Assembly: GCA_030650495.1 (NCBI GenBank)
Contig: JAUSEB010000320.1
Location: forward strand, 1 to 33,377
DNA: 33,377 nucleotides
Source: Armatimonadota bacterium
GTDB taxonomy: Bacteria > Armatimonadota > UBA5829 > JAUSEB01
Reading direction: 5' to 3'
Shown: positions 2,344 through 30,930 of the stretch, piece after piece
Numbering within the stretch: position 1 is the stretch's first letter
How the letters are laid out: the number at the start of each line of letters is the position of its first letter
Program-made: the position numbers and the translations under genes
The notes under the pieces: generated by a model
Seen by the model: only the letters and a program-made list of their open reading frames with translations
What the model was told of the DNA's origin: nothing
Databases searched by the model: none

Positions 2344-2362
2344 AGCTGTCAGCTGTCAGCTT
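2344..2362. repeat. CAGCTGTCAGC-type intergenic repeat preceded by TTGATGATTGAGAGTTGAG
   Basis: AGCTGTCAGCTGTCAGCTT between DUF3866 and the Nudix gene. Confidence 0.7.
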
Positions 2363-7845: not shown

Positions 7846-7865
7846 GCTATTAGCCTGAATTATTC

Positions 7866-7943
7866 ACGTCATTTCGAGAGTAGCGAGAAATCTGCTTTTC
7901 CTGAAGCTAAAAAGCAGATTCCTCACTTCGTTCGGAATGACGG
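7866..7943. repeat. Intergenic palindromic element (GTCATTTCGAG...AATGAC type)
   Basis: Arms GTCATTTCGAGAGTAGCGAGAAATCTGCTTTT and AAAAGCAGATTCCTCACTTCGTTCGGAATGAC form a long imperfect inverted repeat. Related copies at 19026-19154 and 30824-30930. Confidence 0.8.
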
Positions 7944-8077
7944 TCCGCGGTGATTTTGCTCTATTCGCGAGTAATCCGGGTTAGCGCCATTGGTTTCAGC
8001 GGATGATGGGATCATGTCACATTCATGCGCAATCTCTGGTAATAATACCTGTTTTCGTCCAAATCACGTCAAATGTC

Positions 8078-12989: not shown

Positions 12990-13022
12990 CCTATGCTTCG
13001 GCTTGTTCTTTGAAGCCGAAGC
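12990..13022. repeat. GCTTCGGC hairpin repeat, copy 1
   Basis: CCTATGCTTCGGCTTGTTCTTTGAAGCCGAAGC is an exact 33-nt reverse complement of 15751-15783. Internal 10-bp stem GCTTCGGCTT/AAGCCGAAGC. Lies between convergent genes. Confidence 0.9.
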
Positions 13023-15658: not shown

Positions 15659-15783
15659 GCGTCGGAAGGCTTTTTACACCGACGCTGGCTTTAGGCCCAT
15701 AGCTGCTCGCTTCGGGGTAAAAAGCTTCCCGAAGCATAGAAATTACGTTCGCTTCGGCTTCAAAGAACAAGCCGAAGCATAGG
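15659..15783. repeat. Triple hairpin intergenic element containing GCTTCGGC repeat copy 2
   Basis: GCGTCGG/CCGACGC (15659-15685), GCTTCGGG/CCCGAAGC (15709-15735) and GCTTCGGCTT/AAGCCGAAGC (15751-15778). The last hairpin is an exact inverted copy of 12990-13022. Confidence 0.85.
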
Positions 15784-18992: not shown

Positions 18993-19025
18993 CAGTCGGG
19001 GGAGTTCACTCTTAGTAATTACACC

Positions 19026-19154
19026 GTCACCCCGAGCGAAGTCGAGGGGTCTGCTTTCTCCAAGCCGTCAGCTATCGGCTTTCAGCTGATAGCTGACGGC
19101 TGATAGCTGAAAGCTATTCCTAAAAGCAGATTTCTCACTTCGTTCGAAATGACG
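19026..19154. repeat. Composite intergenic repeat: GTCAC/GACGG palindromic element containing a nested CAGCTGATAGC-type repeat
   Basis: Outer GTCACCCCGAGCGAAGTCGAGGGGTCTGCTTTC... and AAAAGCAGATTTCTCACTTCGTTCGAAATGAC. Inner 14-bp perfect inverted repeat AGCCGTCAGCTATC (19063-19076)/GATAGCTGACGGCT (19088-19101). Confidence 0.85.
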
Positions 19155-19246
19155 GGTTACCAATGGCCGGGCAGGAGTTTTTCCTCCCGGCCATAAATCT
19201 TTATGGAGTGCGGTCTGTAATTTACCAAGTGAGGTGCGCGGTAATT

Positions 19247-27838: not shown

Positions 27839-27863
27839 AGCTGTCAGCTGACAGCTGACAGCT
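27839..27863. repeat. CAGCTGTCAGC-type intergenic repeat
   Basis: AGCTGTCAGCTGACAGCTGACAGCT. Related copies at 2344-2362 and nested at 19063-19115. Confidence 0.8.
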
Positions 27864-30823: not shown

Positions 30824-30930
30824 GTCATCCTGAACGAAGTGAAGGATCTACTCAGGTATCGGTATACACCAATAGTTGTGGTAATAGTAACCGATTAGAT
30901 TCTTCGTCGCTTCACTCCTCAGAATGACGG
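30824..30930. repeat. Intergenic palindromic element (GTCATCCTGAACGAAGTGAAGGATCT type)
   Basis: GTCATCCTGAACGAAGTGAAGGATCT... and AGATTCTTCGTCGCTTCACTCCTCAGAATGAC are imperfect inverted arms. Confidence 0.8.

Follow-up and report, generated by a model that had tools for sequence, protein, structure and literature searches.

The closest described relatives of the repeats treated here belong to the CGTC-tagged REP superfamily, which includes dRS3 of Neisseria and some RPEs of Rickettsia, and whose four families mostly carry a short CCA tail and occur in five listed phyla (Di Nocera et al. 2013, PMC3733652). These repeats are widespread, but they were reported without a linked transposase and their spread was left unexplained; REP dimers within palindromes were noted in a few species (PMC3733652). 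Some insertion sequences (IS1397, IS621, ISPpu9 and others) target REPs and insert in hairpin repeats (PMC1525189). In the IS66 family, the ISBst12-group element ISDge4 carries an 8-bp repeat along with GTAACTGCTCAGCA ends (PMC12898284), and Paracoccus elements also have 8-bp repeats (PMC3281130); YTAR is the duplication motif of IS5 (PMC10359306). Period-7 intergenic arrays (TAACTGA and others) are dispersed in Cyanobacteria, Beggiatoaceae and Geobacter (PMC4679880, PMC2700814). REP palindromes as IS targets, REP dimers inside palindromes and heptamer repeats in other phyla are each already known. What is different here is that the layers are stacked in one genome, that CGTC dimers lie in frames with readable duplications and that there is evidence for loop exchange. 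In the open-licence literature searched, we found no report of stacked layers, framed CGTC dimers or loop exchange.

The window (the whole stretch of 33,377 nucleotides that was analysed, contig C160) belongs to a 3.59-Mb draft metagenome assembly of 464 contigs (95.5% complete, 5.8% contamination). A relative with the same hairpin is annotated as Armatimonadota. Five sets of figures are genome-wide: the AATCTGCTTTT matches, the listing by a directional pattern, the 27-locus junction search, the 353 array matches, and the array and junction searches in genomes G001 and G011. Copies were otherwise drawn from stretches fetched around known matches, so that counts from those stretches are biased, and all comparisons of cores, loops and frames are among paralogues of one draft assembly.

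We interpret the element at 19026–19154, with a probability of roughly 60%, as a decayed composite miniature transposon of three layers that was moved by IS transposases, exchanged its filled loops and changed its heptamer number in steps. In this reading, (i) the outermost layer is a frame with IS66/ISBst12-type ends that generates 8-bp target duplications; (ii) its cargo is one long hairpin, a heterodimer of two CGTC-tagged REP-like palindromes placed head to head; and (iii) a palindromic AGCT-N3 heptamer array occupies the apex of that hairpin. That these layers exist and are independent, that target duplications flank the frames and that filled loops are decoupled from arms is shown by the sequences. 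Beyond this, IS transposases would move whole elements in trans, recombination or gene conversion via the identical AATCTGCTTTT/AAAAGCAGATT clamp would transfer filled loops from one hairpin to another, and heptamers would be gained or lost in 7-bp steps at AGCT repeats, as replication slippage in a palindrome predicts. The first heptamer array may have entered a loop by insertion, or may have grown locally from a single AGCT.

The original prediction described this element as two arms (GTCACCCCGAGCGAAGTCGAGGGGTCTGCTTT and AAAAGCAGATTTCTCACTTCGTTCGAAATGAC) with a palindromic block in the loop, and this description is correct. The block, AGCCGTCAGCTATCGGCTTTCAGCTGATAGCTGACGGCTGATAGCTGAAAGCT, is of the same array type as the two stand-alone arrays to which it had been likened (Table 1). 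The hairpin near 7866 has the same outer arms, as had been claimed (D13, 94%; I2, 88%). It is, however, not the simple hairpin it was taken for, being the interior of a 127-bp element with TTAG duplications. The larger frame, i.e. the small transposon-like elements around the outer hairpin, was overlooked. At 19026–19154, intact frame ends are absent and no target duplication is visible.

Table 1. Positions of repeat features in the window.
Feature	Position	Strand	Remarks
Stand-alone AGCTGTC heptamer array	2344–2361		
Frame C element, CCTGAATTATTCAC...GAGTAATCCGGG	7854–7980		127 bp; TTAG at 7850–7853 and 7981–7984
CGTC-tagged core within frame C, loop CCTGAAGCTA	7868–7941		Hairpin of the original prediction
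Empty frame-B target hairpin CTTCGGCTTGTTCTTTGAAGCCGAAG	12996–13021		
Empty frame-B target hairpin	15752–15777		Opposite orientation
Left remnant of frame A, GAGTTCACTCTTAGTAATTACACC	19002–19025		Intact copies start GTAAGAGTTCACTCTCGGTGATTACACC
Left arm of CGTC-tagged core, CCCC subtype	19026–19057	+	C of the tag at 19025
Inner palindromic AGCT-N3 heptamer array	19063–19115		In core loop
Right arm of core, TTTC subtype	19122–19153	-	
Right remnant of frame A, GGGTTACC, then truncated	19155–19162		Compared with L186 and L026
Stand-alone AGCT heptamer array	27839–27863		Partly palindromic
Further GTC-tagged dimer (GTCATCCTGAACG...AGAATGAC)	30824–30928		Other palindromic filling in loop; read by eye

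The hallmark of the outer hairpin, AATCTGCTTTT, has 242 matches in the 3.59-Mb genome compared with three for a reversed control, which is far above what chance would give. The genome contains about 120 outer hairpins, and a search with one directional pattern yields 83 complete copies genome-wide. In the fetched stretches, where counts are biased towards known matches, we delimited 83 complete cores and 39 single arms. The outward arm ends (n = 166) read CGTC in 149 cases and TGTC in 15; AT follows directly after GTC in 158/166 arms, and the CCCC subtype starts with AC. Differing arm subtypes, which the original prediction had suspected at 19026–19154, are in fact the rule: 82 of the 83 complete cores are heterodimers (TTCC+TTTC in 74, CCCC+TTTC in seven and CCCC+TTCC in one). 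Several loop types occur (i.e. CCTGAAGCTA, a 21-base AAGCAC... type, CGATGAATGGTCCCAGA-like, unique and heptamer-filled).

Two CGTC-tagged REP-like repeats, placed head to head, make up the outer hairpin. The hairpin resembles the CGTC superfamily in its outer CGTC/TGTC tag, its AT-starting stems, its head-to-head dimers that are mostly heterodimers and the lack of a dedicated transposase gene. It differs in its tail (CTGCTTTT, present in essentially all copies, rather than CCA), its longer arms and weaker hairpins, and its host phylum, which lies outside the five listed; moreover, it rides in frames with target duplications and can hold heptamer arrays in its loops. Taken singly, the arms form stems that are shorter or shifted and loops that reach seven bases, compared with an 8–9 bp stem and a 4–5 bp loop in the superfamily. 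Because of the tail and the different stem, we place the core in none of the four described families (CGTC-1 to 4). The intergenic mosaic of CGTC-type repeats and other families is reminiscent of the dRS3-flanked repeats of Neisseria, but discrete frames can be delimited here by end repeats and target duplications. Two related hybrids or variants were also seen. The dimer at 30824–30928 is of a CCTGAACG subtype, with an imperfect palindrome (ATCGGTATA...ACCGAT) in its loop, and in E14 bin.108, from a sister lineage (L193–L237), a GGAAATCCCGAAACGGGGCGCTTTCTTAGGAG element often substitutes for the left arm of the core, which makes a hybrid of two palindrome families.

The clearest result came from a scan for inverted ends, in which three pairs of ends delimit three frames. 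Frame A (GTAACAGTTCA) has terminal inverted repeats that begin with GTAA, and a search with GTAASAGTTCA/TGAACTSTTAC at ≤1 mismatch yielded 15 copies of 125–168 bp. The flanking 8-bp duplication is exact in nine of the 15 and matches at 7/8 positions in four; L186 and L013, which are two of the copies with a 7/8 duplication, carry both core and heptamers. Several coreless copies carry another GTC-tagged dimer (GTCACCCTGAACTC...TTCAGCATGAC) instead. Frame A resembles ISs and MITEs of the ISBst12 group in the IS66 family (e.g. ISDge4, PMC12898284) in its GTAAC-type ends and 8-bp duplications, but it is short and non-coding and carries a REP-like dimer or other palindromes as its cargo. In two genomes, frame-A elements abut AGCT heptamer arrays (L129 near 2987; L255, G001:C76), a possible target preference. 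Frame C (CCYGNATTATTCAC) has 12 copies, mostly of 127 bp, with an exact YTAR duplication in eight, and it often lies within heptamer arrays of TTAGTGG or GGAGTTA units, where TTAG or CTAA is abundant.

Frame B (GGGAGTGTTCAAAAA ends) has 15 copies, which measure 141 bp with a CGTC core and 120 bp without one; 11 have an exact 4-bp duplication. By eye, the 120-bp coreless copies carry a GTAG...CTAC (GGGCCTTGTGCCC) dimer (L098, L110, L115, L128, L163, L168, L029 and L055). Most frame-B copies are centred exactly in the hairpin CTTCGGCTTGT-TCTT-TGAAGCCGAAG, and the sample contains 36 empty target hairpins, of which the window has two. Many copies lie at contig ends, where the assembly is broken. 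Frame B resembles the REP-targeting ISs in being inserted in a hairpin repeat, but differs from them in being non-coding, in occupying the exact centre of a 26-bp hairpin and in carrying a REP-like dimer as its own cargo. Elements do insert at hairpin apices in this genome, as this other element pair (frame B in the CTTCGGCTT hairpin) demonstrates; frame B proves it for itself and not for the heptamer block. Taken together, the frames look like carriers of exchangeable palindromic cargo. A candidate fourth frame has ends like TTAGTAAAACGTA.

We also looked for enzymes that could move these frames. One IS66 transposase (470 aa) is encoded at C395. Its element end matches coreless frame-A ends at 16–18 of 20 positions, compared with at most 13/20 for 5,000 random 20-mers, but core-bearing frame-A ends at 12–13/20, near the top of the random range. 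Since the core-bearing ends match weakly, the link to IS66 goes via the coreless relatives. For frame C, the search for an IS5-like partner turned up one good PF01609 gene, at C423, but its ends do not match and no other gene fitted; for frame B there is no candidate transposase. Two RAYT-like Y1_Tnp genes are each flanked by a palindrome of their own (GCTTCGGTAGCCTGCTGCCGAAGC and TTTCGGGATTT...TCCCGAAAC) and are located at 1325–1801 of L061 (C324) and 1237–1767 of L062 (C114).

The inner block consists of AGCT-N3 heptamers in palindromic order. A strict two-unit array pattern (AGCTNTCAGCTNTCAG) has 353 matches genome-wide compared with two for the control; the first hundred matches listed form 59 clusters, four of which lie within cores, and 44 arrays lie outside any core in a part-genome sample. 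Most arrays are mirror-ordered, with right-pointing units followed by left-pointing units around a central AGCT, and the commonest stand-alone array is the perfect palindrome AGCTGTCAGCTGTCAGCTGACAGCTGACAGCT. Like known heptamer (STRR-like) repeats, these arrays are dispersed, intergenic and of period 7; unlike them, they have an AGCT-N3 unit, form mirror-wise palindromes and lie partly in hairpin tips. Other period-7 families occur in the source genome (TTAGTGG, GGAGTTA, GATGAGT and GGTTGAG; L033, L036, L045, L062, L113 and others), and in genome G043 the reversed control of the heptamer search gave 21 matches, which suggests another heptamer family there.

A genome-wide junction search, in which distinct loci were counted by hand, found 27 loci where a core runs into AGCT heptamers. 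All joined arrays seen lie between CTGCTTT and AAAGCAG and none inside the arms. Genome G001, from a sister genus of the same family, has 57 array matches but no core–heptamer junction in the junction search; cores are plentiful in E14 bin.108, which we take to be G001 or a close relative. Genome G011 (same order, other family) has two heptamer-bearing cores with different loop flanks (L251 and L252). From the absence of the joined form in G001 and the different flanks in G011, we conclude that core and heptamers were probably joined on two or more occasions and that their union is not ancestral. The heptamer block is no fixed part of the outer hairpin, being joined to it at 27 loci among about 120 hairpins. 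An invariant inner block, which would have refuted the original prediction, is thus not what the genomes show, and the proposed nesting stands.

How filled loops spread can be read from the relation between loops and arms. Among unfilled pairs with loops >80% alike, arm identity averages 0.988 (minimum 0.962), compared with 0.85 (minimum 0.72) among filled pairs at the same threshold (11 complete copies); L187 and L188, for example, have loops 97% identical and arms 74–76% identical. We base the argument on this threshold comparison rather than on the Spearman correlation of loop and arm identity, which is weak and not significant over all filled pairs (0.15) and weak in the unfilled set (0.12). 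The flanks of the loop-alike filled pairs are 0.49 identical, compared with 0.47 for random sequence. Composites moving solely as units would put similar loops on similar arms, and the filled copies break this pattern, which argues for loop exchange. Faster divergence of arms than of loops is still conceivable, but the unfilled cores speak against it. In the CCCC-arm subfamily, the filled loops lack the unfilled-loop sequence (consensus TYGAACTCA...GG), i.e. it has been replaced, so swapping via the invariant clamp fits better than insertion. Loops hold a ladder of one AGCT (C352 and C445), two units (C222 and C360), three, four and so on up to nine. Aligned with each other, C352 and C210 are almost the same in the right arm and in both loop flanks, which surround a gap of heptamers, although a 10-base block also sets their left arms apart. 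In many filled copies one of the arms is gone, as expected from recombination or deletion at the arrays. From these sequence comparisons we infer that filled loops were spread for the most part through exchange at the conserved clamp and that the heptamer count shifts in 7-bp steps.

Three other explanations deserve consideration. A small mobile heptamer palindrome could have inserted directly into the outer hairpin, at an AGCT of the hairpin's single-stranded tip, and duplicated this AGCT, independently in many copies. Filled loops indeed read flank-AGCT...AGCT-flank and the two simplest loops flank-AGCT-flank, about 200 arrays stand alone, the joined forms of G011 have other loop flanks and frame B demonstrates apex insertion in the source genome. 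We nevertheless consider this unlikely: the flanks GRAAT and TATAA outside AGCT recur with different arm types and in different frames, a feature that repeated insertions would not reproduce, the unfilled loops of CCCC arms are replaced and not interrupted in filled copies, and single-AGCT loops could equally be deletion products. Alternatively, the array might have grown in place by slippage and fold-back copying from a single loop AGCT, with no element entering. The 7-bp length ladder and the mirror-image unit order centred on AGCT in most arrays would follow, and polymerase slippage has been proposed for heptamer repeats in literature cited in PMC4679880. However, hundreds of same-unit arrays in unrelated flanks would require parallel births or dispersal, and long arrays in different cores are 96–99% alike, which is unexpected from separate growth and makes this route improbable.

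It is least probable, and in our view very much so, that the outer hairpin moved as a REPIN by RAYT-type tyrosine transposases. In favour of this route, the core does consist of two inverted REP-like hairpins, and the REP-type tyrosine transposase that the original prediction recommended looking for is present twice. However, both genes are flanked by other palindromes and not by the outer hairpin, the tag is CGTC and not GTAG, and the 8- and 4-bp duplications around the frames are at odds with what is known of RAYT transposition.

The mobile unit appears better explained by IS66-like and IS5-like ends, and the frames suggest that ordinary IS transposases move CGTC repeats. Within the preferred reading of a composite with exchanged loops, apex recombination, which had been offered as an alternative to insertion, is the better supported route for heptamer loops; direct insertion of the heptamer block is the weaker candidate, because the single-AGCT 'empty' loops that came to light are all paralogous and the comparisons yielded no orthologous empty site.

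More tentatively, CGTC- and GTAG-tagged REP-like dimers might be exchangeable cargo of DDE miniature transposons, with the hairpin tip a general site of insertion and exchange at which palindromes are layered. If true, this would explain the spread of CGTC repeats that were reported without a transposase. CGTC palindromes lie in three frames whose ends and duplications can still be read, and two of these frames point to known IS transposase families, so that the spread of the palindromes can now be tested. For hairpin-apex insertion, frame B is a clean case, its target hairpins occurring both filled and empty within one genome, and loop exchange shows a way in which mosaic intergenic DNA can grow.

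The 19026–19154 element adjoins hppA, in the hppA–mscS spacer, and folds strongly on either strand; as RNA it reaches −77.2 kcal/mol (z −12.2), a value as good in 0 of 200 shuffles. The window has no Rfam match to a known structured RNA and no tRNA that could serve as a target, and no Rho-independent terminator was scored at the element. We think that the element is mainly selfish DNA, but as a transcript the hairpin beside hppA may stop exonucleases or transcription. The element near 7866 adjoins a gene for a 1651-aa right-handed beta-helix protein (PF13229 and PF05048; 8003–12955 of the window).
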